NCBI RefSeq assembly: GCF_900155385.1
Contig: NZ_LT699744.1
Coordinates: 1 to 34,769 of the forward strand
Direction of reading: 5' to 3'
Length of the DNA stretch: 34,769 nt
Source: Vreelandella massiliensis
GTDB lineage: Bacteria > Pseudomonadota > Gammaproteobacteria > Pseudomonadales > Halomonadaceae
In this document: positions 1,695 through 30,438 of the stretch, piece after piece
Layout of the letters: each line of letters starts with the position of its first letter
Numbering within the stretch: the stretch's first letter is position 1
Made by a program: the position numbers and the translations under genes
The notes under the pieces: generated by a model
What the model was told of the DNA's origin: nothing
The model's input: only the letters and a program-made list of their open reading frames with translations
Databases searched by the model: none

Positions 1695-4600
1695 TGCTCG
1701 CCTCCCGTGAGCAGTAGAAAGGCTCGGCGGTCAATGAAGGCCTCGACCTCCCCGGTCCAGGGGCTATCCGGCGTCAGTTCGGTGACCGCCTGACTCAGCG
1801 GATTCAGGTTGGCGATGGCCAGGATCGCGCGTGGGGCATCGGCTGCCGCCACCAGCAGAAAGGCCTGACGGGAATCGGGGTCCAACACACGGGCAAGGCG
1901 GTACCCCCGGTGCTGCAGTGTTCGTAGCGCCACGATGTCGTCGGTCGCCACGTAGTGCTCAAGAAGCGATGCCGCGCGCTCGGGCAGCGGCGCTTTTGAC
2001 AGGCCATCGCGCGCGACCTGCTCGGCAAGAGGGGTATTGAGCGTCTCGATTTCTAGCGCCTGGAACTGCAGCTGCTGCTGACGATCGTCGGTGGGCAACG
2101 CGAAGGCGCGCCGAACCGAAGGGGCGATCCAGACGGTGGCAAAATCCGTGTTGCGAGCGGCGGCCAGATAGCGCGTCTGGGCACTGCTGCCCACTTCATA
2201 CCCGGCAGTCGATGCGTCACCGAGCACCTCCTCGGGGGCAAGGCCCATGCTCTCCAGTGACCGGCGCAGCCGCTCGCGCAGCGGCAGTGGCGCGGCATCC
2301 GGGCGTAAGCCATCGGCGAAAGCCAGAAGACTCGGCGCCTGGATGCTCTCTCGCTCCCCCATCCCCCTTATCTGGGTGACGAGAAGCGGCGCGCCGCCTG
2401 CTTCACGCACGAACACCTGATGCATCAGATTGAACACGCTGCGCGGGTTGCGTGGGTTCAACACATCCGCACTCCCCGCTGGGTCAAGGAAGGGGTGGCT
2501 ACCCGCGATCAGCAGCGCGCCCGCTTCGAGGGTTTGAAATAACTGAGTGCCAGCCTCCAGGGTATTGCGTTCAAAGCGCGGGCGCGGCACCTGGACAAGC
2601 TGGGACGACGCTCCACCGGTGGCGATCACCACGCTGCCCCAGGGCTGGGTGGGCGTGGCGTCTAGGGTATTTTCCAGGATCAGGTAGCGCTGATCGTGCG
2701 TGCGATCATGAAAGCGAGTGATGCGATAGCCCAGTCCCCGGGCCAGGTCATTGAGGTAGCGCAGCTCACCCAACGCGTCTTCGTTCCAACCGCGCTGAGG
2801 GCCGCTCACGGCGAGCTCAAGAAGTGGGCTCAACACTTCAAGATCAAGAAACAGCAGCTCGTCAAGACGGGGTGGGCGAAAATCGCCCCCGCCCACCTCG
2901 CGGATCAGCGCGGTTCTTTCTAGCAGGTAGTCGCTCAACGCTCCCGTGTGCTGCGCCAGCGGCGTTGGGGCCGCCTCTTGACGGTGGCTGCGGGCCAGCA
3001 GCGGGCGCAACGCATCCGGGTTGAGGTAGAGCTCGGCAAAGCCCGAGCGGGTGCGCTCGCGCTGCACATTGGGAATGCTTGGCGCCTCCCAGCGTAGGGT
3101 CAGCTCGCCCAGAAGCCGCTCAAGCGACTGCAGTTTTAGATCCTCGGGCAAGGCCTGCTTCACCCGCAGCTGGCTTGGCAGGGCAAGCAGATTGGTCTCA
3201 GGCGCACGCCCACCCAGCAGCTCGCGGGCTGCAGTCCGGGTAATCAAGCGCACCTGAATGGCATTGCCCGGCCCGAAAGTCTGGTGAAACTGATGAAAGA
3301 AGCTGCCGGGATTGCGCGTCACGTCGATCGTGCCCGCCGTGCTTTCACGCAGGCGCACGCTGCTCACGGCAAGGGCCGCAGCCTTCTGGTCACGAAATAG
3401 CGCCAGTCCCGCTTCGGTGATACCGCGCTCGTTGATGGCCGCAGGCACCTCGACCACCAGCCGGCTTTCGAGCTGGGTATCGATAACAAAGGTCCCCCAT
3501 CCCCTGGGCGCCCCCACTTCACTCAGGACGAGGTAGCGCTCCTCGACCCGTGAGATGGCGTAACCGAGTTCACTTAGCCCCCGCCGGGCCTGCTCGAGCT
3601 CGGCAGCATCGCCTTCTCTTTGATAGCGCTTGAGCGCTAGGAGCGCTGCCTGAAAGCGGGCGAGCTCAACGCCGCTAGGTTGCGGCAGATTTTCCCGCCC
3701 GACCACGCCGTAATCCACCACCCGCTGGCGCAGCAGCACATCGCCCAGTGTGGCTTGCGTTTCCGGTGGTGCCACCCGCGCCTGAGTGTCGGCGCCCTCC
3801 TCGATCAGCTGGGCGGGAATGAAGCTCAGCGCAAAGCCCACGAAACTGGCCACCACCACGGCCGTGAGCGAGGTCTGCAGGGTGGCGCGCGTGACCCGGA
3901 TGCCGATGTCCTTGTCGTGCATCTTGAGCGCAAGCAGCGTCGAGATGAGATAGCCAAAGGCGAAGAAGTCGGTGACCTTGATCCAGGGCGCAAAAAACTG
4001 AAAGCCGTAACCGAGCAACAGCTTGTAGACAAAGCCGACGCTGAAGAAGAAGAACAGCTTGCGCGCCCCGGAGAGGTTGATGTTGCCGAAAAAGGGCAGC
4101 TTGAGCAGCAGGTGCACCGCGGTCAAAATCACCGCCACCTCGGCGAAGGTGAGCAACAGCTTAGTCGGCTGATACCACTGCAGTGCCAAGAGCGAGGGAA
4201 TCAGGATGCCGTTGAACTCCCAAGCGTAGTGCAAATTCATGCGCGAGGCGATGAAGGCCGTGGTCAGCAGAATGATATAGGCCTTGGGGCTTGCGAGAAT
4301 CGAGCTGGCCACGTCCTCGTAGAGGTAGTTCAGGTTGGAAACCGAGAAGTTGGTCAGCTCCATCAAGCCCAAGCGCACCAGCACGAACGTCGCGGCCAGG
4401 GTCACCAGCAGCCAGAAGGTGCCACGCACCATGCCCGGCTTCCAGAAGTTGTTGGCGATCAGCGCAACGATAATCAGGCCGAAGCTGTGCAGGTTGTTGG
4501 CGTAGTCGAACTCCAGGCCGAAGTTGGCATCGAGAAAGGCCCCGAGCCCCGGCAGCCAGTAGGCGTCGAACACCACTCGGACAATCACGCTGGTGAGTAC

Positions 4601-4903
4601 CAGGGCAAAGAAACGGTCGCGGCCAAAGAAATCGGCCAGCCCCAGATAGCGCGCGCCCAGCAGCGAAAAAGCGTGAACGAGCAGATAGGTGACCATGCCC
4701 TCGCCGATGATCACCGCCACGCTCCACGGCTTGATTAGCAGTAGCGGCACCAGATAGCCGGGCACCACCAGCCCGGCCAGGCTCCAACCAAAACGCAGGT
4801 TGAAGAAGGCCACCACCGCCACGCCCACCCAGACGGTGGTAATGACGGAGCTGGCAAGACTGCCCTCGGGAAAGAGGTGGAAAGGCAGCAGATCCCAATT
4901 CAT
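1691..4903 (-). CDS. CapC/PgsC-like multi-spanning membrane protein with duplicated extracytoplasmic domain
   Basis: The 1070-residue protein has about 370 N-terminal residues made of roughly ten hydrophobic helices, followed by a long soluble region. The membrane part has two segments resembling CapC/PgsC of poly-gamma-glutamate synthesis: residues 37-60 with the VVPGYLVPLL signature and residues 230-262 with NGILIPSLLALQWY. Family CapC proteins are only about 150 residues, so this is a doubled and much enlarged relative. The soluble part holds an internal repeat: residues about 443-560 and 723-850 share LGY.I.R, RYL.L, WG..VI, LV.VP, E.G..LF and a following NP.S.F...HQ.F motif, with a weaker third partial copy near the C-terminus. 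Its start overlaps the response regulator stop by ATGA. A role in handling a glutamate-rich or other envelope polymer is inferred; no ligase is present in the window. Confidence 0.75.
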   Translation of the reverse strand: MNWDLLPFHLFPEGSLASSVITTVWVGVAVVAFFNLRFGWSLAGLVVPGYLVPLLLIKPWSVAVIIGEGMVTYLLVHAFSLLGARYLGLADFFGRDRFFALVLTSVIVRVVFDAYWLPGLGAFLDANFGLEFDYANNLHSFGLIIVALIANNFWKPGMVRGTFWLLVTLAATFVLVRLGLMELTNFSVSNLNYLYEDVASSILASPKAYIILLTTAFIASRMNLHYAWEFNGILIPSLLALQWYQPTKLLLTFAEVAVILTAVHLLLKLPFFGNINLSGARKLFFFFSVGFVYKLLLGYGFQFFAPWIKVTDFFAFGYLISTLLALKMHDKDIGIRVTRATLQTSLTAVVVASFVGFALSFIPAQLIEEGADTQARVAPPETQATLGDVLLRQRVVDYGVVGRENLPQPSGVELARFQAALLALKRYQREGDAAELEQARRGLSELGYAISRVEERYLVLSEVGAPRGWGTFVIDTQLESRLVVEVPAAINERGITEAGLALFRDQKAAALAVSSVRLRESTAGTIDVTRNPGSFFHQFHQTFGPGNAIQVRLITRTAARELLGGRAPETNLLALPSQLRVKQALPEDLKLQSLERLLGELTLRWEAPSIPNVQRERTRSGFAELYLNPDALRPLLARSHRQEAAPTPLAQHTGALSDYLLERTALIREVGGGDFRPPRLDELLFLDLEVLSPLLELAVSGPQRGWNEDALGELRYLNDLARGLGYRITRFHDRTHDQRYLILENTLDATPTQPWGSVVIATGGASSQLVQVPRPRFERNTLEAGTQLFQTLEAGALLIAGSHPFLDPAGSADVLNPRNPRSVFNLMHQVFVREAGGAPLLVTQIRGMGERESIQAPSLLAFADGLRPDAAPLPLRERLRRSLESMGLAPEEVLGDASTAGYEVGSSAQTRYLAAARNTDFATVWIAPSVRRAFALPTDDRQQQLQFQALEIETLNTPLAEQVARDGLSKAPLPERAASLLEHYVATDDIVALRTLQHRGYRLARVLDPDSRQAFLLVAAADAPRAILAIANLNPLSQAVTELTPDSPWTGEVEAFIDRRAFLLLTGGEQ

Positions 4904-16168: not shown

Positions 16169-16260
16169 GGGATTTCAGTACGTTTTATGCATTATCAAAC
16201 GTACCTATGCCCACTCATAAAAAACTTAAAAATCATATATTTAAGATATTTTTTGTCTTT

Positions 16261-16289
16261 TTGTGTCTTACTTGATACCACGCTATACT
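16261..16289 (+). promoter_or_regulatory. Promoter of the integrase gene
   Basis: TTGTGT (16261-16266) and TATACT (16284-16289) are 17 bases apart, in an AT-rich stretch. A transcript from about 16296 would exclude the ATG at 16187 and supports the GTG start at 16325. A direct repeat of AGGGGAACC at about 16300 and 16312 follows. Confidence 0.55.
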
Positions 16290-16324
16290 GTGCAAATCTA
16301 GGGGAACCAATAGGGGAACCCGAA

Positions 16325-18184
16325 GTGGGTACCAAGAAGGCAATAACCACCCCGGCAGAAGTCTCTGCTTTCGCACTCCCGGAGGGCAGGTTGAAGGCAC
16401 GCCGCGCCGTGAAGTCAAAACATGGCGCTGGTTTGTCGTTGGAAGCACGCGCGGGCAAATCCACGAAACTTTGGATGTATCGTTTCAATCTTGGCGGGCA
16501 ACAGCGTGAAATGATGTTGGGCAGCTATCCTGCCATGACATTAAAGCGTGCCAGAGAAGAACACGCCACTGCCGTTGAATTAGTAAAAAAAGGGCTGGAT
16601 CCACGTAAACAGCGCGCGTCTGAAAAAGCTAATAACTTGTCCGCTTGGACAATGCGAAATGCCTTTGAACGCTGGATAGAGCACTATCAACAAACACCCG
16701 GCCGAAAACAGCAGCAACCACCTACCGCCAAGACGGTATCGCAACAACGGGGGCGCTGGCGTCGTAACCTTGCGCCACTGCTGGCCGATTTTTATGTTCG
16801 TGATGTATCCCGGCGCTTGATTATCGACGTGCTGGAACAAGCGTCAAAAAAAGGCAAAGTAGAGGCGCGCCATAGCCTTAATCTACTTCGTCAGTTACTA
16901 CGTTATTGCCAAATACGTGAACAAATTGAAGTAAATCCGACTGATGGGCTAACGCCCTCTGATATTGCGGCCTCTGCATCTCCACCGCGTAAACGTTACT
17001 TATCATTGTCAGAATTGCACCAGCTGTGGCAGGCAATAGACGATGCGCGTGCAGATACGGAAGGCAAAGCAACTACAGCCGTACTAAGTATTCCCGTTGC
17101 CAATGCGCTTAAGCTTTTAATTTTGACGGGTGCACGCCGTGGAGAGGTAGCGTCCATGCGCTGGGATGAAATCAAAAAGGATATCTGGACAATTCCCGCT
17201 GAACGCACCAAGTCCCGCCGCCAGCATCAAGTATACCTCAGCCCCCTAGCACTTAAGCTCCTAGACGAGCAGCGCCATCTAGGCGTGGGGGAGTTCGTCT
17301 TTGCCTCCACCCAAGGAACTGGTAATCCCATTCATCCAGACAGCCTAAGCACTACCATTGCTCGACTACAGGGTCGAAGCAGCAAAGAACACAATGTGGC
17401 CGCGCCGCTAAACCATCTACATCATTTTACGGTCCACGACTTACGGCGTAGCTTTGCTACACAAGCAACAGAAGTTCTTATGGCGGATCCATTTCTAGTA
17501 GAAACCATGCTAGCCCACGCGCCACCTAAGCTAATCGGCACTTATAACCATGCAAAGCGATGGAAGTCTCAAGTAATCGTCTGGCTCAGTTGGGGAGAAC
17601 TTATAGCTCAAAAAGTCGCAAGCTCCCCCACTTCAAACGCTAATAGCTTTAAGAGTGTTAGCCCTACCATGATGACAAGCTCTGAAAGTGAACCAGAGTT
17701 GGATGCGTCACCAAATAATCAGCGAAGTGCGGGAACAATTGTGTCAAATAGCCAGGCTTCTGCGCCACCTGATTTCATTACCTTTATCGATATTGAGGCC
17801 TCCGGCTTAAAGCAGCCAGATAGCTACCCTATCGAAATCGGCTGGGCCGATACTCTCGGTAATAGCGACGCCTTCCTGATTTGCCCTCTTCCCCAGTGGA
17901 CGTATTGGGATGAGGATGCCGAATCCCTGCATGGCATCACACGCGAGCAACTTCAGGAGGAAGGCGTCTCCGTGGACGAAGCAGTTAAACGGCTAGAAGA
18001 GATGCTAGGTGTTGAGACTGTCTTCTGTGACGCGCTGGCATTTGATGGTTTCTGGCTCGATCGACTATTCAAAGCTGCGGGCATAGAGCCTTCGTTCCAG
18101 TTGGCTGATGTTTACCAGCTATATGGTGCATTAGGCGCCGAGCGAGCGACACGATTGGGAAATATTATCCCGTCTTATTCATGA
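16325..18184 (+). CDS. P4-type tyrosine recombinase fused to a DEDDh exonuclease, truncated by IS1380
   Basis: Residues 1-100 form a P4/CP4-type arm-binding (DUF4102-like) region with LWMYRFNLGGQQREMMLGSY, followed by a core-binding domain and a catalytic domain. The tetrad is visible: R271 in GARRGE, H371 and R374 in HDLRR, H398 in LAHAP and Y407 in GTYNHA. After a linker of about 70 residues rich in Ser and Asn, residues 483 onward are a DnaQ/RNase T-type 3'-5' exonuclease: D489 and E491 (FIDIEASGL) and D574 (LAFDGFWL). An IS1380 insertion at 18168 removes the last motif and adds six foreign residues. The GTG start at 16325 is favoured by AGGGGAA seven bases upstream and a promoter at 16261-16289; an ATG at 16187 lies before that promoter. 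The integrase part appears intact. Confidence 0.85.
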   Translation: MGTKKAITTPAEVSAFALPEGRLKARRAVKSKHGAGLSLEARAGKSTKLWMYRFNLGGQQREMMLGSYPAMTLKRAREEHATAVELVKKGLDPRKQRASEKANNLSAWTMRNAFERWIEHYQQTPGRKQQQPPTAKTVSQQRGRWRRNLAPLLADFYVRDVSRRLIIDVLEQASKKGKVEARHSLNLLRQLLRYCQIREQIEVNPTDGLTPSDIAASASPPRKRYLSLSELHQLWQAIDDARADTEGKATTAVLSIPVANALKLLILTGARRGEVASMRWDEIKKDIWTIPAERTKSRRQHQVYLSPLALKLLDEQRHLGVGEFVFASTQGTGNPIHPDSLSTTIARLQGRSSKEHNVAAPLNHLHHFTVHDLRRSFATQATEVLMADPFLVETMLAHAPPKLIGTYNHAKRWKSQVIVWLSWGELIAQKVASSPTSNANSFKSVSPTMMTSSESEPELDASPNNQRSAGTIVSNSQASAPPDFITFIDIEASGLKQPDSYPIEIGWADTLGNSDAFLICPLPQWTYWDEDAESLHGITREQLQEEGVSVDEAVKRLEEMLGVETVFCDALAFDGFWLDRLFKAAGIEPSFQLADVYQLYGALGAERATRLGNIIPSYS

Positions 18185-20035: not shown

Positions 20036-21265
20036 CTAAGTAGATAAAGTGACTTTTATCCCCCACTCCGCCGGTGTTCGACCATCTTTCACGAGGCACC
20101 ATATAACGGTATAAAAAGGAGATGTTTCAGGTACGGTAATAAAGCCATCGGTAAACACCACCAGTAGCTCAGGCGGTGAGACTTCCAAGGCAGTAAATAC
20201 CGGCCGCACATCGCTCCCCCCTCCCCCACAACACTGCCACTGGCTGAGTTCATGGAGCTGACCTTCATGTAATTGACGCTGCTGGGTGATTCGCGTGTCG
20301 AACTCCATGACGTTAACCGTGACACGGTCACATGCGCCAAGGATGCCAACCAGTTCACTCAAAAAATGCGGCAAATCTCGCTGACAGCTTCCACTGGTAT
20401 CAATCGCCACCGCCAATGACAATGTTTGACTGCGCTGGCTGGGCAAATAAAGCCCCCGATATATATGCCGTCGTGATGGCGGGAGCCATTGTCGATTACC
20501 GCTCAACGTTTGCTTAATAAATTGCGCCAGCACCTGTTGCCAGGGGATCACCGGCTTGCGTAGGCGCTCCACCAGACGCGCCACATGCCCGGGTAAGGTT
20601 CCCTGCTGTCGCTCGTGCTGCTGGGCCGTAGCGACCAGGCGTTGCTGCCAGGCGCGCGCATTTTCCGCCGATACTGGGCGGGGCATGAAATCGGGATCAT
20701 GCACGTCACCGGCCTGCGCCTGCAGGGCCTGTTGCACATCGTGAATATCCAGCACATAACCGCGCAGACGGCGACTCTTTTGACCGAGAAGGGCATAGAT
20801 CTGCTCGGCCGACTGTCCATGAAAACATCGATCAAACAGGGCATCTTTCGGGCAATGGCCGAGCTCCTCCTTGAGCAAAGCGTTAATTTCGTAGTCGCAT
20901 GCATGATTCCAGCGTTCATGCGCTCGGCTAAGCTGGCGGCGATGATGCCCCAGCGCACAGTGCCATACCTCATGTGCCAGAATGAAACGGCGATCCTCGT
21001 GACTACGCCCCGCCATAAACGCCGCGTTAAAGAAAATACTTTCCCCGTCAGTTCCTGCGGTAGGAAGCCGATCATCCACTACAGCAGCAAGCCTCAGCTG
21101 CATCAGTAGCTTGGCAGTAAACGGTTGGAACGTGAGCAGCCAGGCCCGGTCGGCTTCGCACAGTTGCTGCATCCGCTTCTTTAGATGCTGCTCCTCGGCA
21201 TTAGGCGCACGCGGGGCGAAAGGCATTTGAGCCTGGGCTTCCGTTTGGATAGGCGCATTAGGCAT
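20036..21265 (-). CDS. Metallopeptidase-like protein with C-terminal VWA domain (DUF2201 type)
   Basis: This 409-residue protein has an N-terminal putative metallopeptidase domain with H98-E-V-W-H102 (ILAHEVWHCALGHH), an HExxH zinc motif, and a C-terminal VWA-like domain with the MIDAS residues D289-T-S-G-S293, a GGGGSDVRP loop (347-354) and VVFTDG (369-374). This domain pair is the COG3864 type, which commonly sits beside a MoxR ATPase, as here. In MoxR-VWA systems the ATPase is thought to remodel or load targets held by the VWA partner. The start at 21265 overlaps the moxR-like stop by eight bases; ATGs at 21277 and 21307 are alternatives. It is co-transcribed with the MoxR gene from the promoter near 22470. 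Confidence 0.9.
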   Translation of the reverse strand: MPNAPIQTEAQAQMPFAPRAPNAEEQHLKKRMQQLCEADRAWLLTFQPFTAKLLMQLRLAAVVDDRLPTAGTDGESIFFNAAFMAGRSHEDRRFILAHEVWHCALGHHRRQLSRAHERWNHACDYEINALLKEELGHCPKDALFDRCFHGQSAEQIYALLGQKSRRLRGYVLDIHDVQQALQAQAGDVHDPDFMPRPVSAENARAWQQRLVATAQQHERQQGTLPGHVARLVERLRKPVIPWQQVLAQFIKQTLSGNRQWLPPSRRHIYRGLYLPSQRSQTLSLAVAIDTSGSCQRDLPHFLSELVGILGACDRVTVNVMEFDTRITQQRQLHEGQLHELSQWQCCGGGGSDVRPVFTALEVSPPELLVVFTDGFITVPETSPFYTVIWCLVKDGRTPAEWGIKVTLST

Positions 21266-22436
21266 TAGACGATGCATCCGCTTGATCCGTGGGCATTTCC
21301 GCCGCAAATGACAGCCCCATCTGCGCGCTTAGGTGCTGCTGAAACACCTCGCCATGCTGCTCGCTCCAGGCAGAAAAATCAGGATGCCCTAGAAGCGCCA
21401 GGGTGCGCGCTTGCGTAGTCACGTCGTCTGGGCCTTGCAGCGCGTCCAGAAGTGCCAGCGTAGCAAAGTCGGCCGTGAGCCCCCGGCTAATGGCAAAGAA
21501 ACGCGCCAGGCGCTGCTGAGTGCTAGGTGTTTCAAGCTCATCAGCTTCAATATTTTTCCATAGCGCATGCGCCAACCCCGCACAGAACGCATAACGTTGA
21601 TCCGCCCGTTCAGGAATTTGGATCGGCACTTTACCGGCAAGCATGGCGGGGATATCCGGGAGTTTGAGCGCCCAGTCACGGAAAGCCAGAAATTCCGTAC
21701 CGGCGCCCTCACCCACCAAGCCATGCACTATCAGCGCCTGAACATCAGCTGGCAGAGAGTCCGCTTGACGAAGTGACTGCGCAACACGCGCCCAACTGCG
21801 CGGGCTGGGCCAGCCCTGTTCGACGGCCCCTTCCATGGAAAAGAAACACTCGGGACGAAAACGTAAAAAAGCGATGACCTCAGGATGCAATCCTTCCGAA
21901 CGCGCCCAACGGGTCCAGTTATCCAGATCGGGCGTGAGGTTGAGATGGCAAAAACGGTTGGCCAGCGCACTGGAAAACGTCTGTGCAACGGCGCGATCCT
22001 CTAGGCGGTTACCCGCCGCGACCACCAGCCAGCCGGGAGGCAGGCGATAAAGATCGCCCAGGCGTCGGTCGAGAATCAGCTCATAAGCCGCCACCTGAAG
22101 GCTACGATCCGCGGCAGTGAGCTCATCAAACAACAAAATACCTCGGCTATTGGGATCACGGGGCCACTCCCCCGCGAGCAGCCAATCCACAACGCCACGT
22201 TCATTATCAGGAACAGGCAAGCCGCGTAAGTCCACAGGCTCACGTTGCGCTAGACGGATATCGATAAAACCTATGCCTTGCTCCTCAGCCACCTTGCGTA
22301 CAATCGCGCTTTTGCCCACCCCGGGTGCGCCCCATAGCATGACCGGTGGTAATTGCTCGGCAAGTGCCGGCGTATGCGCCAACTGCTGGGCCTGGTGGGA
22401 TAAAAGCGTCATCGCCTGATCGGGTGTCGCGTACAT
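21258..22436 (-). CDS. MoxR-family AAA+ ATPase
   Basis: This 392-residue AAA+ protein has Walker A GAPGVGKS (36-43), Walker B LLFDE (101-105) and a sensor-1 Asn in AAGNRLED (N143), so ATP hydrolysis should be intact. The family works as chaperone-like rings with VWA partners, assembling or activating protein complexes. AGGAGG lies six bases upstream of the ATG, an ideal ribosome site. The gene overlaps the downstream metallopeptidase-VWA gene. Its promoter region carries the 34-bp composite operator motif described at 22470-22503, shared with the LRR-like gene and an AAA+ remnant. The hipBA pair is divergent from it. Confidence 0.92.
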   Translation of the reverse strand: MYATPDQAMTLLSHQAQQLAHTPALAEQLPPVMLWGAPGVGKSAIVRKVAEEQGIGFIDIRLAQREPVDLRGLPVPDNERGVVDWLLAGEWPRDPNSRGILLFDELTAADRSLQVAAYELILDRRLGDLYRLPPGWLVVAAGNRLEDRAVAQTFSSALANRFCHLNLTPDLDNWTRWARSEGLHPEVIAFLRFRPECFFSMEGAVEQGWPSPRSWARVAQSLRQADSLPADVQALIVHGLVGEGAGTEFLAFRDWALKLPDIPAMLAGKVPIQIPERADQRYAFCAGLAHALWKNIEADELETPSTQQRLARFFAISRGLTADFATLALLDALQGPDDVTTQARTLALLGHPDFSAWSEQHGEVFQQHLSAQMGLSFAAEMPTDQADASSNA

Positions 22437-22469: not shown

Positions 22470-22503
22470 AGCTTAATCTGCGAATGCGACAATCGATGTC
22501 GCA
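22470..22503 (-). promoter_or_regulatory. Composite operator/promoter motif, site 1 (MoxR-VWA operon)
   Basis: Read toward the MoxR gene, the site is TGCGACATCGATTGTCGCA, eight bases, then TTAAGCT. The TGCGAC/GTCGCA arms form an inverted repeat with a 7-bp spacer, 49-67 bp before the ATG. Two other sites (26170-26203, 28960-28993) keep the same arms and the same spacings. Confidence 0.7.
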
Positions 22504-22512
22504 AGCATCGAC

Positions 22513-22530
22513 TTTCCCTAACGGGATAAA
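22513..22530. promoter_or_regulatory. Putative HipB operator O1 (imperfect)
   Basis: TTTCCCTAACGGGATAAA keeps the TTTCCCTA half-site of the near-perfect palindrome at 22558-22581, with a degenerate right half. It lies between site 1 and the hipBA promoter region, so HipB bound here could also affect the divergent MoxR gene. Confidence 0.4.
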
Positions 22531-22557
22531 ATTTGCTTTTCAGGTTTATCGCCTTCA

Positions 22558-22581
22558 AAATTTTCCCTATAGGGAAAATTT
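22558..22581. promoter_or_regulatory. Putative HipB operator O2 (24-bp perfect palindrome)
   Basis: A perfect 24-bp palindrome with core TTTTCCCTATAGGGAAAA is centred between 22569 and 22570, about 60 bp upstream of the hipB-like gene. HTH antitoxins of this family repress their own operon through such palindromes. Confidence 0.65.
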
Positions 22582-22610
22582 GGCTATCATGGCTGTGTCA
22601 TCCTCATTAA

Positions 22611-22627
22611 TTTCCCCTTAAGGAAAA
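22611..22627. promoter_or_regulatory. Putative HipB operator O3 (imperfect)
   Basis: TTTCCCCTTAAGGAAAA is an imperfect version of the 22558-22581 palindrome and ends 13 bases before the hipB-like start, next to its ribosome site. Together with O1 and O2 it makes an evenly distributed array of about 50-bp steps. Confidence 0.45.
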
Positions 22628-22640
22628 TCCGGAGCCCTCC

Positions 22641-22898
22641 ATGCATCCCTCTATTTCCTCAATGGGTCAAGCGTGTCAGCCAATCGATACTGCTGAACGT
22701 CTTGGCTTGATCATCCGCCAGGCACGTAAACGCCAAGGGCTGACGTTGGAAACGCTGGCGGGGCTCTGCGGTGTCAGCATTCGCTTTTTGAGCGAACTGG
22801 AAAACGGGCGGCAGTCTTGTGGCATGGGGCGAGTCTTGCGCGTACTGGAAACGTTAGGTGTTGAGCTCTTCGCCCTACCGACGGATATCAACGCATGA
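22641..22898 (+). CDS. HipB-like HTH antitoxin
   Basis: This 85-residue protein carries a Xre/Cro helix-turn-helix (about 20-75): LGLIIRQARKRQGLTLETLAGLCGVSIRFLSELENG. It should bind and neutralise the HipA-like kinase encoded next and repress their shared promoter through the TTTCCCTA palindromes. GGAG lies six bases before the ATG. Its TGA overlaps the toxin ATG (ATGA), the usual coupling of antitoxin to toxin. The gene is divergent from the MoxR-VWA operon and may be an addiction cassette inserted into that locus. Confidence 0.9.
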   Translation: MHPSISSMGQACQPIDTAERLGLIIRQARKRQGLTLETLAGLCGVSIRFLSELENGRQSCGMGRVLRVLETLGVELFALPTDINA

Positions 22899-24172
22899 AT
22901 CACGATACGTTAAGCGTATGGTACGCAGAGCGCCGCGTTGGCACTTTATGGCGCGGTGAAGACGGTCGATTGATGGGGTTTGAATATGAAGAAGATTGGC
23001 AACGTCATGGCCATGCCATCTCTAACAGCCTACCGTTTAGCCAGCGCACATGGCCGCCTGAAACGCTGACGGCTCATCACTGGTTCGGCAATTTGCTCCC
23101 TGAAGAGCAAGCACGGACCGCCTTGATACGCCAACTCGGTATCCCCGATGACGACTTCTCATTGCTTGCCGCCATCGGGGGCGATTGTGCCGGCGCACTC
23201 ACGATTTTGCCACCCGGCCATGCACCTGACTCCGCTACACTTTCTTCAGAAGATGTTGTGCCATTTTCCCAGGACAAATTGCATCAGTGGGCTGCATTTA
23301 AGCAGCGCTACACATTGTTCAAGGAAACTTCCACAACGGCCAAGCCGCGCCTTTCCCTCGCGGGGGCACAAGATAAGATTCCGGTGGTTTGGCTCGATGA
23401 GGCCTTCTATCTGCCCAGAGGAACCACAGCCTCATCCCATATCATCAAGTTTGCCGTAGAAGGCCGTGAGCAAGTGATATTTAATGAGCTCTACCTCAAT
23501 ACGCTTGCGGCGTTAGTGGGTCTCGACTGCCCCAAAACATACGTACGCTATGTCGACCGCTATCCCTTGCTTATCATTGAGCGCTACGACCGCCAAAAAG
23601 AGGGAGACGTTTTTAAGCGTATTCACCAAGAAGACCTATGCCAGGCCATGGGCATATCCCGCACACGGAAATACCAAGAACATGGCGGCCCGACCTTCGC
23701 TGATTGCATCCAAGCACTCCGAGAAATATGCAAGCCGCCGGCACGCTCCCTCCAACAGCTGCTGCGTTGGCAAATATTCAACGTCTTGGTGGGTAACAGC
23801 GACGGTCATGCAAAAAATGTGTCGTTACTGCAAAATGAAAAAGGCAAATGGCGTATAGCGCCGGCCTACGATCTCGTGGGTACGATAGTACTGGGATACG
23901 ATCCTCGGCTCGCCTTCTCCATTGGTGAGCAATACAACGCCATGCAGCTTTTGACCCGCGACTGGCAAGCTTTCGCCGATGCTTGCCAGCTGAGCTATCC
24001 CTTCATTAAGCGTGAAATCGAACACATGCGCATGAGGCTCTCCGAGCATGTTGACTCCACCGATATACAGCATGCAGTGGCAGAAGCGGGGTTACCCAAG
24101 AATGCCTGGCCTCGCTTGCAGCAGCAGCGCCACCACATTGTCAAACAGTGCAAAAAATCCGCTCAGTGGTAA
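22895..24172 (+). CDS. HipA-like serine/threonine kinase toxin
   Basis: This 425-residue protein has both parts of the family: an N-terminal Couple_hipA region (about 5-105, with SNSLPFSQRTWPPETLTAHHWFGNLLPE) and a HipA_C kinase domain. Kinase motifs are visible: SLAGAQDK (154-161) as the phosphate-binding loop, K185 in HIIKF, D303 in GNSDGHAKN as the catalytic base and D326 in APAYDL as the metal ligand. The archetype phosphorylates glutamyl-tRNA synthetase and induces dormancy; other HipA families have other targets, so the substrate is open. The gene appears intact. It ends ten bases before the convergent LRR-like gene with no visible terminator. Confidence 0.92.
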   Translation: MNHDTLSVWYAERRVGTLWRGEDGRLMGFEYEEDWQRHGHAISNSLPFSQRTWPPETLTAHHWFGNLLPEEQARTALIRQLGIPDDDFSLLAAIGGDCAGALTILPPGHAPDSATLSSEDVVPFSQDKLHQWAAFKQRYTLFKETSTTAKPRLSLAGAQDKIPVVWLDEAFYLPRGTTASSHIIKFAVEGREQVIFNELYLNTLAALVGLDCPKTYVRYVDRYPLLIIERYDRQKEGDVFKRIHQEDLCQAMGISRTRKYQEHGGPTFADCIQALREICKPPARSLQQLLRWQIFNVLVGNSDGHAKNVSLLQNEKGKWRIAPAYDLVGTIVLGYDPRLAFSIGEQYNAMQLLTRDWQAFADACQLSYPFIKREIEHMRMRLSEHVDSTDIQHAVAEAGLPKNAWPRLQQQRHHIVKQCKKSAQW

Positions 24173-24182
24173 CGTAAGGCGT

Positions 24183-26138
24183 TTAACGTCCGCCTGAGGC
24201 TGGCTGCCGCTGCCTTAGCTGATGACGGATAACAGGCGGAAATGCCAACATGTCATCATCGTTATCTTCCTGTATGACTTCTTGCCCCATGGCCACCGCC
24301 GTTTGCACCGCCGCAGAAGGCGGCATCAACGCGAGCTGCATAAACTGCTGTTGGACTTCACGAATGTTTTTCGAAGTGGGAAACCCTGGCAGGCGCCACT
24401 GAAACCAGTCATCCGATTGGCGTGCAAGCGTCATCAATAGCGCGCGTACGGGACCTGGGTACATTTGAAGTAACTCTGCGAGTTGTTGGGGCAAGCTGGC
24501 CCAGGGTGTCATTTCAGCAATGGCGTGCAAAACGGCCTGACGCTGGGCTTGATCAAGGCTTTCCTCCTTTAGCAAGCGCGGCAGATAACGCGCAGTGCCT
24601 TTTTGCATAGCGGGCAACGACAGCTGAGGCCATTGTCCGCTGCCGTAAAGCGAGACCAACACCTCATGCATTAGCGCGATCAATGCGGGATGGGCGTTTT
24701 CCGCCGTGGCGGCACGCACAAAATATCCCAGATTATTGCGCTTCATTGCCTCCTTAAGCAGCGTTTTTCGAAAGGCTTTCGCGTGTTCGCTTTCGGAGGC
24801 ACATAGCGCCCACAACTGAAGGTCGGCGTTTAACCCTTCATCCAAGCGATCCGCTGGAAACTCCCACCCCCAACGCGTGTCAACACGCTGATAGTCGCCG
24901 TCACGCAGGCTGGGACGCTTGCGTTTGCGCCCCCCTTGACGGTGCCAGGCACTCAACGTTCGCCGGCACTGCCAAAGCGCGTCGAGCGCCATGCCTTGTT
25001 TCGCCAGATGCAACAGCGTGGTTAGGCTATGAAATGCGGCCTGCGGTGCATAGCGCTGGGACAGCACGTTGAGTACGCCTTCGAGCAAGTCGATTTCGCC
25101 CGCTTCCAGCCGCTTTAGGCTCTGCTTTAGCGTGGCTTCATCGATAAAAAAGCGCGCCTGGTGCAAAAGCGGTGTTGGCACACTGCCGTAACAGTCCACG
25201 GGCAGTCCGTCGGGTAGCGCGACGTCAGTTAGCGCATCGCAGTGATAAAGTGCCAGGTGCTTGGCCCAGCTCACAGTAAGACGTTCAAGTCGCGGCGCAT
25301 GCAGCTGCACATGATCCCAGGCGTCGGTCAGCTTGAGGTTTTTCATATTGCCGCGCAGCGTCAGGTGTTTACGTGAACCGTGACGCAGTGGCATGGGAGC
25401 ACGCTCAGAAGGCGCTTGGCGCGATCGGGCAAACGCCCCCTTCACCTCGGTCAGCGCCTCTAAACCTTGTGTTTCGCATACGCCAAGCGTGTGCATACTC
25501 AGCGTTTCTAGAGCGGTAGCTTTGTTCATTCGCACACGCTGGGGCCCATCGATCACGAGCTGCGTTAATGGGGAGGCATCCGTAATCAACCACTCACCCT
25601 CACCAGAAAGGTGGAGCGCCGATGGCAGAATGGTTGGATTGATGACGACAGTGAGCGGCAATGGGCTAGGCGTCGCTACCGGGGAGGGTTTGCTCAAGTT
25701 ACTCGGACATGACCAACCCCAACGTAATGCCATATCGTGGGTTTTCGCCTCATGGCCAAGGAGCCGTACGCCCTTCCATGGCGCCTGTTCTGACGTGAGC
25801 CGCAGTATATCCGTTTGCCAATCCGCATCCAGCTCATACACCACGCCATGTACCATAAGCGTGCGTGGCATACTCAGACTAAACAAGTGGACGATCGCGC
25901 CTTTGGAAAGCGCTGGCAGATGAATCTCGCGCAGGTTAGGCAACTGATTTAACTGTAGATGCAGGTAGTCTTGCGCACCGCAGCCGCGTAAATCCAGCAC
26001 TTCCAGCTGACCGTCCTCATGAAGATCCAGCGCGCGCAAATTCGGTTCAGCGAGCACTAATCGCGTGCCTTTCTCGGCATTACCGCACGGCCCGATGAGG
26101 GCGGTGCCGCCATTGCTATCCAGCGTTAGTGGGTCCAT
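24183..26138 (-). CDS. Leucine-rich-repeat-like protein of unknown function
   Basis: I do not recognise a family for this 651-residue protein. The N-terminal 100 residues hold short beta-strand repeats of LRR or solenoid type (LRALDLHEDGQLEVLDLRGC, then LPNLREIHLP), and similar strands recur to about residue 330 (MKNLKLTDAW, LERLTVSWAKHLALYHCDALTDVALP). The C-terminal half is predominantly helical. No signal peptide, membrane helix or obvious catalytic motif is visible, so a recognition or scaffold role is likely. GGGAGG lies six to seven bases before the ATG. Its promoter carries the same 34-bp composite motif as the MoxR-VWA operon, at nearly the same distance from the start, which ties it to that system as a possible sensor or target-binding subunit. 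Confidence 0.8.
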   Translation of the reverse strand: MDPLTLDSNGGTALIGPCGNAEKGTRLVLAEPNLRALDLHEDGQLEVLDLRGCGAQDYLHLQLNQLPNLREIHLPALSKGAIVHLFSLSMPRTLMVHGVVYELDADWQTDILRLTSEQAPWKGVRLLGHEAKTHDMALRWGWSCPSNLSKPSPVATPSPLPLTVVINPTILPSALHLSGEGEWLITDASPLTQLVIDGPQRVRMNKATALETLSMHTLGVCETQGLEALTEVKGAFARSRQAPSERAPMPLRHGSRKHLTLRGNMKNLKLTDAWDHVQLHAPRLERLTVSWAKHLALYHCDALTDVALPDGLPVDCYGSVPTPLLHQARFFIDEATLKQSLKRLEAGEIDLLEGVLNVLSQRYAPQAAFHSLTTLLHLAKQGMALDALWQCRRTLSAWHRQGGRKRKRPSLRDGDYQRVDTRWGWEFPADRLDEGLNADLQLWALCASESEHAKAFRKTLLKEAMKRNNLGYFVRAATAENAHPALIALMHEVLVSLYGSGQWPQLSLPAMQKGTARYLPRLLKEESLDQAQRQAVLHAIAEMTPWASLPQQLAELLQMYPGPVRALLMTLARQSDDWFQWRLPGFPTSKNIREVQQQFMQLALMPPSAAVQTAVAMGQEVIQEDNDDDMLAFPPVIRHQLRQRQPASGGR

Positions 26139-26169
26139 ATTCGCCTCCCGTTGCTGATATCGAGATAAC

Positions 26170-26203
26170 AGCTTAACGGGCCGGTGCGACGTTCCATGTC
26201 GCA
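26170..26203 (-). promoter_or_regulatory. Composite operator/promoter motif, site 2 (LRR-like gene)
   Basis: Toward the LRR-like gene the site reads TGCGACATGGAACGTCGCA, eight bases, then TTAAGCT. The arms and the distal heptamer are identical to site 1 (22470-22503), while the spacer bases differ, a pattern expected of a conserved protein-binding site rather than a recent duplication. The arms lie 47-65 bp before the ATG. Confidence 0.7.
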
Positions 26204-26218
26204 GTTAACATGGATGGC

Positions 26219-27823
26219 TTAAGCGCCCCAAGTGTGGATAGGCCTATCGCCGTGGTGTTCAGTGCCCTGCCAGATTTTCTCTTCCCATGGCACATCGTCT
26301 GCGCGGTTGAACACCACAAGATGGGCTTCATCGGCACCCACTTGGTCCGCATAACCGGCTGTTTGCGCGACGCCCTTCGCTACGGTGGCCTCCCGGCTGT
26401 CGCGTTGAATTTTGAGCTCAATCACCACCCGCTGTACCGGGCCGTTAAAGCCTTGCGCCTGACTCAGCGGCCACTCGATCAATAAGTCGATGCGCTTGCG
26501 CCCCAGGCCATATTCGCGCGTGATACGCCCGCCGCCGTTGATAATGCGCTGCAAAAATGCCTGCATCACAAGCTGCGGCCCGGCTTCTTTATACTGAAAG
26601 CGCTCCAGCCAACTCTCGGCGTGCTCGCGGAAAAACTGCTGAAATCCTGCCAGCAGTTTGGGCACGTCCAGCCGACGTTCAGGAGTGAGGTACCAGGCCT
26701 GCTCCTGATTGGGAATGCGCGTCTGCATGATCCAGGTAAGATCGCGCGGGATGACTTCGCGATAGATACGGTTACTGATACGCAGGGACGGGTACGTCTC
26801 GATCAGGCCCAAGTCTTCGACATACTGCTGGTCGTCCGGCTTGATCGCATCAATATCGACACTCTCTTCGCTGGTAAGTAACGCACTCATCACCCGCTGC
26901 ACGCGCGGCTCGCGCAGCTTGTCGGTGAGCTGATCCAGGTGCGTGGTGCGGGATTGAATCAGCGTCTCACGCGCGGCGCGGTAATCCTCCAGCGTGAGCA
27001 GGCGCGTGCGATCGCGGGCGGGCCTGAAGCGCCAGGTCAGCTCGTAACCCAAGGCGTTGACCAGCCAAGGCTGGCCTCGGGTGTCTTCCCATAGCTCCGG
27101 GAAAATCGCCGGGTCCAAAGGCTGCCCGGTGGCTTCGGTATGCTGACACCAAAGTTGCTCGCACTCTTCATAGGAGAAGTTGCCCATGCGCAGCGATTCG
27201 GCCTTGATGTTGAAGGCGCTGCCGCCGGTGATCACCTCCGCGCCCTCCTGGTGCATGCGGTAATCGCGCACGTCGCGTACACCGCATAGAATGATCGACT
27301 GGGGGAAGGCGTTGGGCCGCTGGGCGTACCCCGCACGGATTTGTCGCAGAAGCGATATCAGCGTATCCCCGACTAAGGCATCGACTTCGTCGAGAAACAG
27401 AACGGTAGGTTTAGTGGCATGCTGTGTCCACATCTGCAGTAATCTAGTCAGTCGCTGCTGGGGCGAAATTGTGTATTGCTTGGCTTCATACCACGTGACC
27501 AGTGCATCCTCATCAAGATAGAGCTGAATGGCATTGATCACCGCATCACACACTGCCCGCATGCCTTTTTCTTCGTCTCCCCGAGCGGCTTGGGCGCCTT
27601 CGATATTGGCGTAAGCACATGCATAGCGACCTTCTTCATTGAGCGCCTGCATCATCGCCAACAGCGTGGTGGTCTTGCCCGTCTGGCGCGGCGCGTGCAA
27701 CACGAAGTAGCGCTCTTGCGCGATCAGCGCTTCAATCTCTTCCCAGTCGACACGCATCAGCGGATCAATATGATAATGCTTGTCTGGCTTAGTTGGGCCG
27801 GCGTTATTAAAAAAGCGCTCCAT
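26219..27823 (-). CDS. AAA ATPase with C-terminal PD-(D/E)XK nuclease domain
   Basis: This 534-residue protein is of the AAA_35-like group. It has Walker A APRQTGKTT (44-52) and Walker B LFLDEVD (142-148), followed by a winged-helix-like region. The C-terminal domain matches the PD-(D/E)XK fold: D446 (GRKRIDLLIEW), E469-x-K471 (RVVIELKIQRD) and Q487 (VAQTAGYAD). Proteins of this design are widespread in accessory DNA and are suspected defence or mobile-element nucleases, but no firm function is known. AAGGTG lies seven bases before the ATG. It is on the same strand as the LRR-like gene, 80 bp upstream of it, and divergent from the WYL regulator. Confidence 0.85.
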   Translation of the reverse strand: MERFFNNAGPTKPDKHYHIDPLMRVDWEEIEALIAQERYFVLHAPRQTGKTTTLLAMMQALNEEGRYACAYANIEGAQAARGDEEKGMRAVCDAVINAIQLYLDEDALVTWYEAKQYTISPQQRLTRLLQMWTQHATKPTVLFLDEVDALVGDTLISLLRQIRAGYAQRPNAFPQSIILCGVRDVRDYRMHQEGAEVITGGSAFNIKAESLRMGNFSYEECEQLWCQHTEATGQPLDPAIFPELWEDTRGQPWLVNALGYELTWRFRPARDRTRLLTLEDYRAARETLIQSRTTHLDQLTDKLREPRVQRVMSALLTSEESVDIDAIKPDDQQYVEDLGLIETYPSLRISNRIYREVIPRDLTWIMQTRIPNQEQAWYLTPERRLDVPKLLAGFQQFFREHAESWLERFQYKEAGPQLVMQAFLQRIINGGGRITREYGLGRKRIDLLIEWPLSQAQGFNGPVQRVVIELKIQRDSREATVAKGVAQTAGYADQVGADEAHLVVFNRADDVPWEEKIWQGTEHHGDRPIHTWGA

Positions 27824-28006
27824 CGAATAGCACCTTGAAAAGGAAAACTTTCTTCACTTTAGCACGGGTAACTGCCTATCGTTGCCACAAGGAAAAATAG
27901 CCATAACGTGAAAGCAAAATGTTCTCAATCGCGCCAGCAACTCTCTAACAGACCCAATAGCTTGATACCCTGAAGGTAGGTACACAGCTACGAAAGGACA
28001 ACGCGT

Positions 28007-28942
28007 ATGTCTCAGCTCGCACGGCAGTGGGCGATTTTATGCCACCTTGTTCCCCCCCACGGCCCCATCACGGTAAGTGAGCTCTACCAAAAGCTGTCGG
28101 ATCACTTCCCGGCGAGTAAGCGCACTTACGAGCGGGATCTTCTGCATCTTGCCGATACCTTTCCCCAAGCGGTTATCAGTGAGGACGGCGGAGGTGATAA
28201 CGGGCGAACTACCTACTGGTCCCTGCGTTCGCGGCGCGGCCTTATCCCCGAGGTGTTGCTCAATGATGCCGATATTGCGATGGCACTGGTGGTACTCGAA
28301 CAACAGGCCCATAGCCGCTTGCCCCGTAGCGTCATGCAACGTCTACAAAAATGGTGGGAGCAAGCCCATGGCACCTTGGCGCATGCACCGGATATTCGAC
28401 TCGATCATTACCGGGCATTAATCCGCTACTTACCCGATTCGCTTCGCCCGGTACCGCCTACCGCACCAGAGGCCATTCAACTCACTGTCGAGCAGGCCCT
28501 TATGGAAGGCCAAGCCTTGAGGCTCACACGAGATACTCTGGATGGCGCTGAGACGCTAACAGGCTTAGTGCCACTTCGCTTATTGCTGCTAGAAGAAGTG
28601 ATGTACCTACTTGCCGAACACCCTAAAGCCGAAAGCGCTGAGGCGCGGTTGTGCAAAATCCCATTGCACCGTGTCACTCATGCTCAATGCATCGGCCTTG
28701 CCACCGGGCGGACGAGGGATCCCGACCTTGCCCAACAAGAGGTACTCGGCACCGGTGGGCAGCAACCTATCGAAATGGTGGTATCTCGCGAGGTGGCAGA
28801 GATGCTTTTTGAACGCCCGATGGGTCACAACCAAATACTGACACCGCTTGGCAACGGTCACTACCGACTCACCACAACGCTGGATGACAGCCACCAGCTT
28901 CGTCACGTTTTAGCGCAAAATGGCGGCATGTTCAGCGCTTAA
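28007..28942 (+). CDS. WYL-domain transcriptional regulator
   Basis: This 311-residue regulator has an N-terminal winged helix-turn-helix (about 1-75; QLARQWAILCHLVPP and SKRTYERDLLHLADTFP), a WYL domain (about 155-240; ALRLTRDTLDG...GLVPLRLLLLEEVMYLLAEH) and a C-terminal WCX-like extension. WYL proteins such as BrxR and CapW repress bacterial defence operons by binding inverted repeats and respond to a ligand through the WYL pocket. The canonical W-Y-L triplet is not conserved exactly. AAAGGA lies eight bases before the ATG. Site 3 of the composite motif begins 18 bases after its stop, making it the best candidate to bind all three sites. Confidence 0.87.
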   Translation: MSQLARQWAILCHLVPPHGPITVSELYQKLSDHFPASKRTYERDLLHLADTFPQAVISEDGGGDNGRTTYWSLRSRRGLIPEVLLNDADIAMALVVLEQQAHSRLPRSVMQRLQKWWEQAHGTLAHAPDIRLDHYRALIRYLPDSLRPVPPTAPEAIQLTVEQALMEGQALRLTRDTLDGAETLTGLVPLRLLLLEEVMYLLAEHPKAESAEARLCKIPLHRVTHAQCIGLATGRTRDPDLAQQEVLGTGGQQPIEMVVSREVAEMLFERPMGHNQILTPLGNGHYRLTTTLDDSHQLRHVLAQNGGMFSA

Positions 28943-28959
28943 TCAGCGATGACCCACAA

Positions 28960-28993
28960 TACGACAGATGACGTCGCACCACTGCAATAAGCT
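28960..28993 (+). promoter_or_regulatory. Composite operator/promoter motif, site 3 (AAA+ remnant)
   Basis: On the plus strand the site reads TACGACAGATGACGTCGCA, eight bases, then ATAAGCT. It differs from sites 1 and 2 by one base in the first arm and one in the heptamer, with identical spacings. It lies between the WYL gene and the decayed AAA+ gene and points toward the latter. Confidence 0.65.
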
Positions 28994-29056
28994 AGAAAAA
29001 ACGGCCGCGTTTACCCTGGCACAAAAGGCATAGCATAACGTGCCTACCATGCCCGA

Positions 29057-29392
29057 GTGCCTATGGAGTGGCTGAATAACCGTCCTGGACTTGAGAGCAC
29101 CGTGAAGCGATTGAGCTGCCACAAGCACGGCCGCCTATGCCTTCACGGATTGCCCGATAGCGACAAAATCGCCTTGCCGAAGTGCCTTTTCAAGCGCTTG
29201 GACAGCAAATTGACCGACGTTCACACCAGCGGCATGCTAGATAAATTCGCTGGGGGGACAGAAGAAAATTCGGGTTGCTTGCTGAAATAGCGTCGCGAAA
29301 AAAAGGCCGTACTGCGATGTAACGAGGTGGATACCCTGCTAATGCAGCAGGATAACGAGATACAGAGCTGGGAAATTTCGCGCACTAATTGA
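29057..29392 (+). pseudogene. Decayed AAA+ ATPase remnant
   Basis: From a GTG at 29057 the frame gives RLCLHGLPDSDKIALPKC, then KRLDSKLTDVHTSGMLDKFAGGTEEN. It reads like an AAA+ core in which a Walker A GLPGSGKTAL has become GLPDSDKIAL. After a frameshift near 29265-29300 the same protein continues as REKKAVLRCNEVDTLLMQQD and EIQSWEISRTN, the Walker B region with CDEVD changed to CNEVD, and ends at TGA 29390-29392. Two nucleotide-binding motifs are damaged, the frame is broken and the rest of the ATPase is missing, so this is a pseudogene. It follows site 3 and was probably the third operon of the MoxR-VWA system. Confidence 0.65.
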
Positions 29393-29410: not shown

Positions 29411-29791
29411 ATGGATCACTTACAACGCGATATAGATCGCTGCCCTCGCGTCGCCGTGTACGGCACGCTCAAGCAAGGCTGCCACAACCATCATTGGCTT
29501 GAAGGCGCTATCCTGGTTGGACATGACCGCCTTACGTCCCTCACCCTCTATGACCTTGGCCCTTACCCCGGTGCCAAAGTGGAAGCGTCAACCGGCGCGG
29601 TCGTTGAGATTTACGCGATCAATGTCGAACACTTGGCTTTACTGGATCAGCTGGAAGGTTACGTCACGCATGCACCATGCGAAGGGCTTTACGATCGTGC
29701 TGTTTTTCCCACTCAGCATGGTGAGGCGTGGTGTTACCTCTACAACGCAGGAACTCAGGGCGAGATGCGTATCGAGGATGGGGAATGGTGA
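29411..29791 (+). CDS. Gamma-glutamylcyclotransferase family protein
   Basis: This 126-residue protein is of the AIG2/GGCT-like fold. VAVYGTLKQGCHNHHWLEGA (14-33) is the family's substrate-binding loop and the Glu in LDQLEGY (about residue 81) is the expected catalytic base. The family releases 5-oxoproline from gamma-glutamyl amino acids, amines or peptides; the exact substrate is not readable. The only purine-rich site, GGAG, is 11 bases before the ATG, so translation may be modest. Its stop overlaps the start of a poly-gamma-glutamate hydrolase gene by seven bases, so both proteins probably act on gamma-glutamyl bonds in sequence. Confidence 0.88.
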   Translation: MDHLQRDIDRCPRVAVYGTLKQGCHNHHWLEGAILVGHDRLTSLTLYDLGPYPGAKVEASTGAVVEIYAINVEHLALLDQLEGYVTHAPCEGLYDRAVFPTQHGEAWCYLYNAGTQGEMRIEDGEW

Positions 29792-30438
29792 CAAAGCATA
29801 GGCAATCCATGCTTGAGCATGTAACCACTTGGCTACGTCGAAAGGGGTGGATTCGCCACCGCGGAGACCGCTACAGCAACTTTTCGGCGCTGGCATGCGA
29901 GCAACCCAATGGGGCATTTTCGATTACGTATGCCGATCGGGGCTCGCCGATCACCATCATGGCCATTCACGGCGGCAAAATCGAGCCTGGCACCTCCTCC
30001 CTGGCAAAACGAATCGCAGGTAAGAGGTTCAACTATTACAGCTTCAGTGGAGACAAGAAGCGCCACAACTGGGATTTACACATCACTAGCACGGCGTTTG
30101 ATGAGCCCGTTGCCTTGGCATTGGCGGACCGTTCCGCTGTCGTGGTAACACTTCACGGCTGCATGGGCCGAGGCACTGTTGCCTATACCGGAGGCGATAA
30201 CGTTGAACTGTGTCAACAGATGGAAAACGTGTTGAACTGCGCGGGTGTAAAAAGCCGTCCGCACCCTATTTTTCATGGCCATGGACGCAACAATATCTGC
30301 AACCGGGGCCAGCATGGGGGGCTTCAACTGGAGCTGACTCCAAGGCTACGCCTCTGCCCTTATGCCTGGCGAAAACGGCGTATCTTGGTCGATCGTATCC
30401 AGAAACTGCTGGACGACGGTGCTAACCTTAACGGGTAG
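29785..30438 (+). CDS. Poly-gamma-glutamate hydrolase family protein
   Basis: This 217-residue protein matches the Gamma_PGA_hydro family (PghP/YmaC-like zinc peptidases). Signature segments are AIHGGKIEPGTSSLAKRIAG (zinc-binding His and Glu), LHITSTAFDEP, VVVTLHGCMG (a further His) and the C-terminal NNICNRGQHGGLQLELTPRLR. The archetype is a phage enzyme that cuts poly-gamma-glutamate capsule. No signal peptide is visible, so it acts in the cytoplasm or is released by lysis. The ATG at 29785 has GAGG seven bases upstream and overlaps the cyclotransferase stop; an ATG further upstream at 29728 lies inside that gene. A phage or island origin is likely. Confidence 0.88.
   Translation: MVTKHRQSMLEHVTTWLRRKGWIRHRGDRYSNFSALACEQPNGAFSITYADRGSPITIMAIHGGKIEPGTSSLAKRIAGKRFNYYSFSGDKKRHNWDLHITSTAFDEPVALALADRSAVVVTLHGCMGRGTVAYTGGDNVELCQQMENVLNCAGVKSRPHPIFHGHGRNNICNRGQHGGLQLELTPRLRLCPYAWRKRRILVDRIQKLLDDGANLNG

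Follow-up and report, generated by a model that had tools for sequence, protein, structure and literature searches.

The closest described counterpart of the system presented here is DriD of Caulobacter crescentus. According to the DriD preprint (PMC12340889), it is a homodimeric WYL activator with the operator consensus ATACGAC-X7-GTCGTAT, its site overlaps the -35 and lies at a fixed distance from the -10, and its signal is single-stranded DNA (ssDNA) after damage. The work covers one organism and five promoters and proposes a mechanism common to homodimeric WYL activators. Aligning its oligonucleotides on the conserved G-14, we read the -10 as 9 nt past the second arm in three of three promoters. 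PafBC, which acts by sigma adaptation in mycobacteria, is a WYL activator at promoters without -35 contact and a heterodimer of which only the PafB helix-turn-helix (HTH) contacts a -26 motif; SiwR of Mycobacterium smegmatis is a homodimeric activator that uses a 19-bp imperfect palindrome upstream of the -10 of an adjacent two-gene operon and requires R38 and R42 for promoter binding; BrxR and CapW share the WYL fold and have operators in defence loci, where they act as repressors. Here we analyse a stretch of 34,769 nt from Vreelandella massiliensis (Halomonadaceae; contig NZ_LT699744.1), referred to as the window, in which a 34-bp element, the box, occurs three times and a gene for a WYL protein lies next to one copy. 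Our proposal is that the box most likely works as a DriD-type promoter that depends on an activator, and that this activator is the WYL protein encoded beside it.

A sequence-only reading of the window had described the element as a composite operator/promoter motif, TGCGAC-N7-GTCGCA-N8-TTAAGCT. Scanning the window with this pattern returned three matches, against 0.01 expected in shuffles, at the positions that reading had named (Table 1). Sites 1 and 2 match without mismatch and site 3 with two, and the spacer sequences differ among the sites. The 5' ends of sites 1 and 2 lie 67 and 65 nt from the start codons of the MoxR and LRR-like genes, and site 3 starts 18 nt past the final base of the stop codon of the WYL gene.

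The genome-wide scan that it had called for was run on the 23 contigs (3.4 Mb) of the own genome, with TGCGAC-N7-GTCGCA-N9-TAAGCT and up to three mismatches (C, L and G numbers below are our handles for contigs, loci and genomes). This gave seven places, four of them with at most one mismatch, namely the three window sites (22470 and 26170, both perfect; 28960, one mismatch) and a perfect fourth copy at C1:845166-845199 (+); the other three have two or three. Since the reversed pattern, with as many mismatches allowed, gave 12 places, by count only the matches with at most one mismatch carry weight. A fifth site, C1:554956-554989, is nevertheless credible: it has two mismatches, but the intact AAA gene 31 nt behind it has relatives with the same element. 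Its overlap with what may be an earlier start codon had made us consider it a chance match, an explanation dropped because the homologues carry the same site. Five own-genome sites are thus counted in all. On the opposite strand, the fourth site lies 29 nt before the start of a truncated metallophosphatase (47-51% identity over 43-55 aa, E 1e-7 to 2e-9), a link that is less certain because the better -10 of this site faces the other way; no homology was found between this site and the AAA gene.

The same arrangement is found across the family. A search of 201 family genomes for homologues of the WYL protein gave 56 places in 47 genomes, and the 43 WYL loci analysed comprise the window, two named genomes and 40 of the 55 places found in other genomes. 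In these loci CGAC-N7-GTCG occurs 75 times, compared with 9-40 times when the spacer measures 1-6 or 8-15 bp. In 35/43 loci a palindrome is found no more than 3 kb from the WYL gene (1-8/43 for spacers of 3-6 and 8-12 bp), and some of the remaining eight have a TGCGGC arm. The 72 distinct palindromes give 144 orientations, of which 37 have TAnnnT exactly 9 nt past the arm; no other offset from 0 to 29 reaches more than five. The 37 distinct composites give the consensus TGCGACA-N5-TGTCGCA-N9-TAnnCT, in which positions left free by the search pattern are also conserved (T1 in 26, G2 in 32, A7 in 29, T13 in 34, C18 in 31, A19 in 30 and C33 in 23). The distance from box to start codon is usually 20-60 nt. 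The exact composite occurs at 31 sites in 18 of the 201 genomes, with seven hits for the reversed control. Shuffles, the reversed-pattern control and the peaks in spacer and offset together rule out a chance origin. A spread through the class was also considered and ruled out, as in 369 genomes of the class the exact composite is at background level outside the own genome.

When TAAGCT is taken as the -10, the centre of the palindrome falls on the -35 slot. We sought a -35 hexamer at 16-18 bp in 52 distinct composites, from the WYL loci and further loci, and a match of 4/6 or better was present in none of them, compared with about 10% of background TAnnnT. The fixed distance to the -10 and the absent -35 point to DriD-type activation, which goes beyond what the sequence-only reading had suggested. 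The arms T(G/A)CGAC-N7-GTCG(C/T)A match the DriD operator at all three sites and family-wide, although the outermost A/T of its consensus are unconserved here; the palindrome over a poor -35 and the -10 at 9 nt past the second arm are likewise shared. In contrast to PafBC as described, a full palindrome is present, and the own genome shows one WYL-type gene where PafBC needs two distinct subunits. SiwR resembles our system in its palindrome and in the mode of action proposed here and differs in its target genes.

We also looked at the box from the side of the genes. Orthologues of the LRR-like protein and of a 705-aa double-AAA ATPase (AAA705), whose remnant lies behind site 3, were sought by protein in 82 genomes of the genus, irrespective of any box. 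There were 16 genomes with AAA705 and 11 with the LRR-like protein; matches beginning past query residue 60 or shorter than 80 aa (one AAA and one LRR fragment) were dropped. All 15 AAA705 genes whose start could be located are preceded by a box (12 with exact CGAC-N7-GTCG arms, three with one mismatch), with TAnnnT at N9 in 14 and a position 28-31 nt before the start in 14. Exact arms precede 8/10 LRR-like genes, six of these eight with TAnnnT, and the two boxless genes are 28% identical. For MoxR, exact arms were present in 8/8 rows (seven distinct sites, one locus having been fetched by its site) and TAnnnT in 6/8; the VWA gene lacks a separate box, as would be expected of a gene within the MoxR operon. 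G572, which shares its AAA and LRR boxes with V. azerica, may belong to that species. Thus, the comparison with orthologous loci that the sequence-only reading had proposed finds the motif kept before the MoxR, LRR-like and AAA705 genes, and the conserved spacing and the position before the same gene families support its view of a composite operator/promoter.

Further genes carry the box in relatives: ADP-ribosylglycohydrolase, SIR2, PcfJ and calcineurin-like phosphoesterase genes, a DUF2201_N metallopeptidase-like gene adjoining the WYL gene and, in four loci, the WYL gene itself. The composite stands upstream of three of four accessory (second) recC genes (G088, G192 and G576; not G162) and of none of the other 26 recC loci read, a count of 30 loci that leaves further recC matches, including accessory fragments in G589, outside; G088 and G192 are not independent, being 90% identical. 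The accessory recC genes (L139, L140, L141 and L142 in G088, G192, G576 and G162) are 64-100% identical to the G088 query and the other recC genes of the same genomes 47-49%; AAA705 lies in the same 20-kb stretch as the accessory recC in all four. A single palindrome stands between divergent genes in two places, between LRR-like and AAA705 (L123:9931-9979, G138) and between LRR-like and accessory recC, with AAA705 within 14 kb (L141:5204-5252, G576), as reported for the bidirectional driD promoter in the available part of that work. An exact composite in G129 (L126:9948-9981) has no long open frame behind it.

Inverted arms near a tyrosine recombinase could also be its recombination or attachment sites. 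The integrase at 16187-18184 and the different placement of the AAA gene in the own genome and in V. azerica would fit this, but the spacers vary between sites, TAnnnT is conserved and start codons usually follow at 20-60 nt, both of which are features of promoters, and boxes precede the same genes at different places; we regard this explanation as highly improbable.

The protein encoded next to site 3 has the predicted layout of a winged HTH (wHTH; residues 1-73), a three-helix bundle (79-138), WYL (155-231) and WCX (252-304), and its AlphaFold2 model (pTM 0.53) predicts the same order, which is that of DriD. A Foldseek search with the model placed DriD chains at ranks 1-6 (E 2e-11), followed by PafBC (4e-9), CapW (9e-7) and BrxR (1e-6), although identity to DriD in these alignments is 15-18%. 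A sequence search of the PDB with the close WYL group alone returned nothing relevant, and a profile search with the wider group gave PafBC as the best match; no relative was found in viral contigs. In the homologues R39 of the HTH is near-invariant and R43 invariant, a pair spaced like R38/R42 of SiwR in the account available. R222 of the WYL-domain Arg pair is kept and its partner is replaced by Pro or Ala, a difference from DriD, as is the occurrence of several WYL paralogues with one motif code. The palindrome suggests that the protein forms a dimer.

By analogy, a WYL homodimer would bind both arms and cover the -35 slot, and once bound would hold RNA polymerase-sigma70 on a promoter that the polymerase could not use alone. 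A signal loading the WYL domain, as ssDNA does for DriD, would then trigger joint expression, and the MoxR-metallopeptidase/VWA proteins, the LRR-like protein and the double-AAA ATPase would be produced together. Binding, activation and the ligand or inducing signal are what we infer here for the WYL protein. In such a system modules could scatter over the chromosome and remain one regulon, because the box travels with each gene.

If the WYL protein were instead a repressor like BrxR or CapW, it would sit on the palindrome, block polymerase at the -35 and be released on a signal. WYL repressors frequently adjoin defence genes, according to the part of PMC9122601 consulted. Repression, however, requires a self-sufficient promoter, which the lack of a -35 in all 52 composites argues against, and has no need of an exact 9-nt spacing to the -10; the BrxR box, in the sources we have, consists of 11-bp arms with a 5-bp spacer, and no fixed link to a -10 was found reported there. 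The fixed palindrome-to-10 spacing and the absence of a -35 lead us to favour activation, and we consider a repressor unlikely.

That the WYL protein is the likely binder, as the sequence-only reading had it, is supported by its being the sole WYL match in the own genome, with no Pfam WYL match elsewhere in it, and by the distribution of homologues: a WYL match is present in 16 of the 18 genomes that hold an exact composite, compared with 31 of the 183 other family genomes (Fisher p 9e-10). Of the other two, G132 has a truncated homologue (167-aa frame) and G129 has none. Another regulator, such as the HipB-like HTH protein at 22641 or an unseen factor, could instead bind the palindrome with the WYL gene as a mere neighbour. 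For HipB, the different palindrome of hipB itself argues against this, and so does the V. azerica locus (L049), which keeps all three sites and in which no HipA homologue appeared; for any other regulator, the clustering of palindromes around WYL genes, their association with WYL matches across genomes and arms equal to the DriD consensus, as given in the preprint parts consulted, do so. We think such a binder quite improbable.

Several points weigh against a DriD-type promoter read by the WYL protein. A second structure aligner put DriD, BrxR and CapW level in Z for the WYL model, which counts for a repressor. Four genomes, one of them (G573) 88% complete, have a boxed AAA705 gene yet no homologue by the WYL profile (Table 1), which counts for another regulator; G132, also among the 15 genomes with a boxed AAA705 gene, has the truncated homologue. 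An arm base is off consensus in three of the four (G129, G188 and G190). Decay might explain this, but an arm mismatch is also present in the own copy and in that of G194, both in genomes with a WYL gene. Finally, ssDNA is the least certain step of the mechanism because one Arg of the WYL-domain pair is lost.

Table 1. Boxes and associated genes, with positions in the window or locus handles in related genomes
Feature	Position	Strand	Remarks
Composite site 1	22470..22503	-	TGCGAC/GTCGCA arms, 7-bp spacer, N9, -10-like TAAGCT; MoxR ATG 33 nt past site end
Composite site 2	26170..26203	-	TGCGAC-N7-GTCGCA-N9-TAAGCT; LRR-like ATG 31 nt past site end
Composite site 3	28960..28993	+	TACGAC-N7-GTCGCA-N9-TAAGCT; flanked by WYL gene and AAA remnant
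MoxR-type AAA ATPase	21258..22436	-	First gene behind site 1; AAA_3 match below its cut-off
DUF2201 putative metallopeptidase + VWA-like protein	20036..21307	-	Overlaps MoxR gene; predicted same operon
LRR-like protein	24183..26138	-	Behind site 2; N half predicted to be beta-rich, C half helical
WYL regulator, 311 aa	28007..28942	+	Predicted likely binder
Remnant of double-AAA ATPase gene (AAA705)	29042..29389	+	Behind site 3
Boxed AAA705 genes in genomes without detected WYL homologue	L179, L181, L185, L186		G129, G188, G190, G573

Regarding the targets in the window, the sequence-only reading had tied the MoxR-VWA, LRR-like and AAA+ genes into one regulon. The first two stand, with sites present and conserved; the AAA gene at 26219-27823 (-) does not, since it has no palindrome upstream and site 2 lies downstream of it. 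The AAA member belongs to another family, AAA705: the remnant behind site 3 and the intact own copy at C1:552807-554924 share 59% identity over 122 aa (E 2e-35). The intact copy is 525 kb off and has its own box 31 nt upstream, and in V. azerica an AAA705 homologue, broken into frames, occupies the site-3 position next to the WYL gene. This member seems to have moved or been duplicated, copy and remnant each keeping the promoter box. A 91% identical copy of the AAA protein at 26219-27823, also boxless, lies at C1:836058 (L204), about 9 kb from the fourth site.

The LRR-like protein matched no Pfam family and had no Foldseek match in the PDB at E 0.001, which leaves its LRR label without confirmation. 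The MoxR gene adjoining a VWA protein with a peptidase-type domain recalls the MoxR-vWA ternary conflict systems (PMC7159879, consulted in part); those systems have VMAP, iSTAND, FtsH or a beta-propeller as third component, of which the first three were not identified here, without a test aimed at them, and that paper mentions WYL once and DUF2201 never.

Other genes of the window include a hipB/hipA-like pair (22641-24172, +) between the MoxR and LRR-like genes, not seen at the V. azerica locus L049. Two inverted repeats accompany the pair: that of hipB, at about 22558-22581 (AATTTTCCCTATAGGGAAAATT), and a weaker repeat around 22611-22627. The tyrosine recombinase (16187-18184, +) is an unusual fusion, its C-terminal residues 533-660 matching a DEDDh exonuclease model (PADLOC E 7e-10). 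A CapC-like capsule domain protein (1691-4903, -) and a poly-gamma-glutamate hydrolase-like protein (29728-30438, +) are also encoded.

The proposed regulatory mode is that of DriD. The lineage, the gene set, which differs from the DriD targets didA/bapE/dnaG/recJ named in the preprint, and the occurrence of one code with several WYL paralogues were not found described in literature searches judged by titles and abstract openings. The DriD operator-promoter geometry thus reappears in another bacterial class, where it marks mostly uncharacterised genes. On a practical level, it allows WYL-activated genes to be sought by a rule read from sequence, yields a prediction of which of the marked genes cooperate and makes the mechanism that the preprint, in the parts available, proposes for homodimeric WYL activators testable outside Caulobacter. 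We put forward more tentatively that one DriD-type code with interchangeable WYL activators may run a response of Halomonadaceae to damage or phages that is dispersed and exchanged horizontally. It would comprise the MoxR-metallopeptidase machine, the LRR-like helical-repeat protein and the double-AAA ATPase, joined in relatives by a second RecBCD, ADP-ribosylglycohydrolases, a sirtuin and a metallophosphatase, whose genes would carry the code with them and join the regulon wherever they land. A portable promoter of this kind is suggested to hold scattered accessory modules, including the second RecC, under one damage-type signal.

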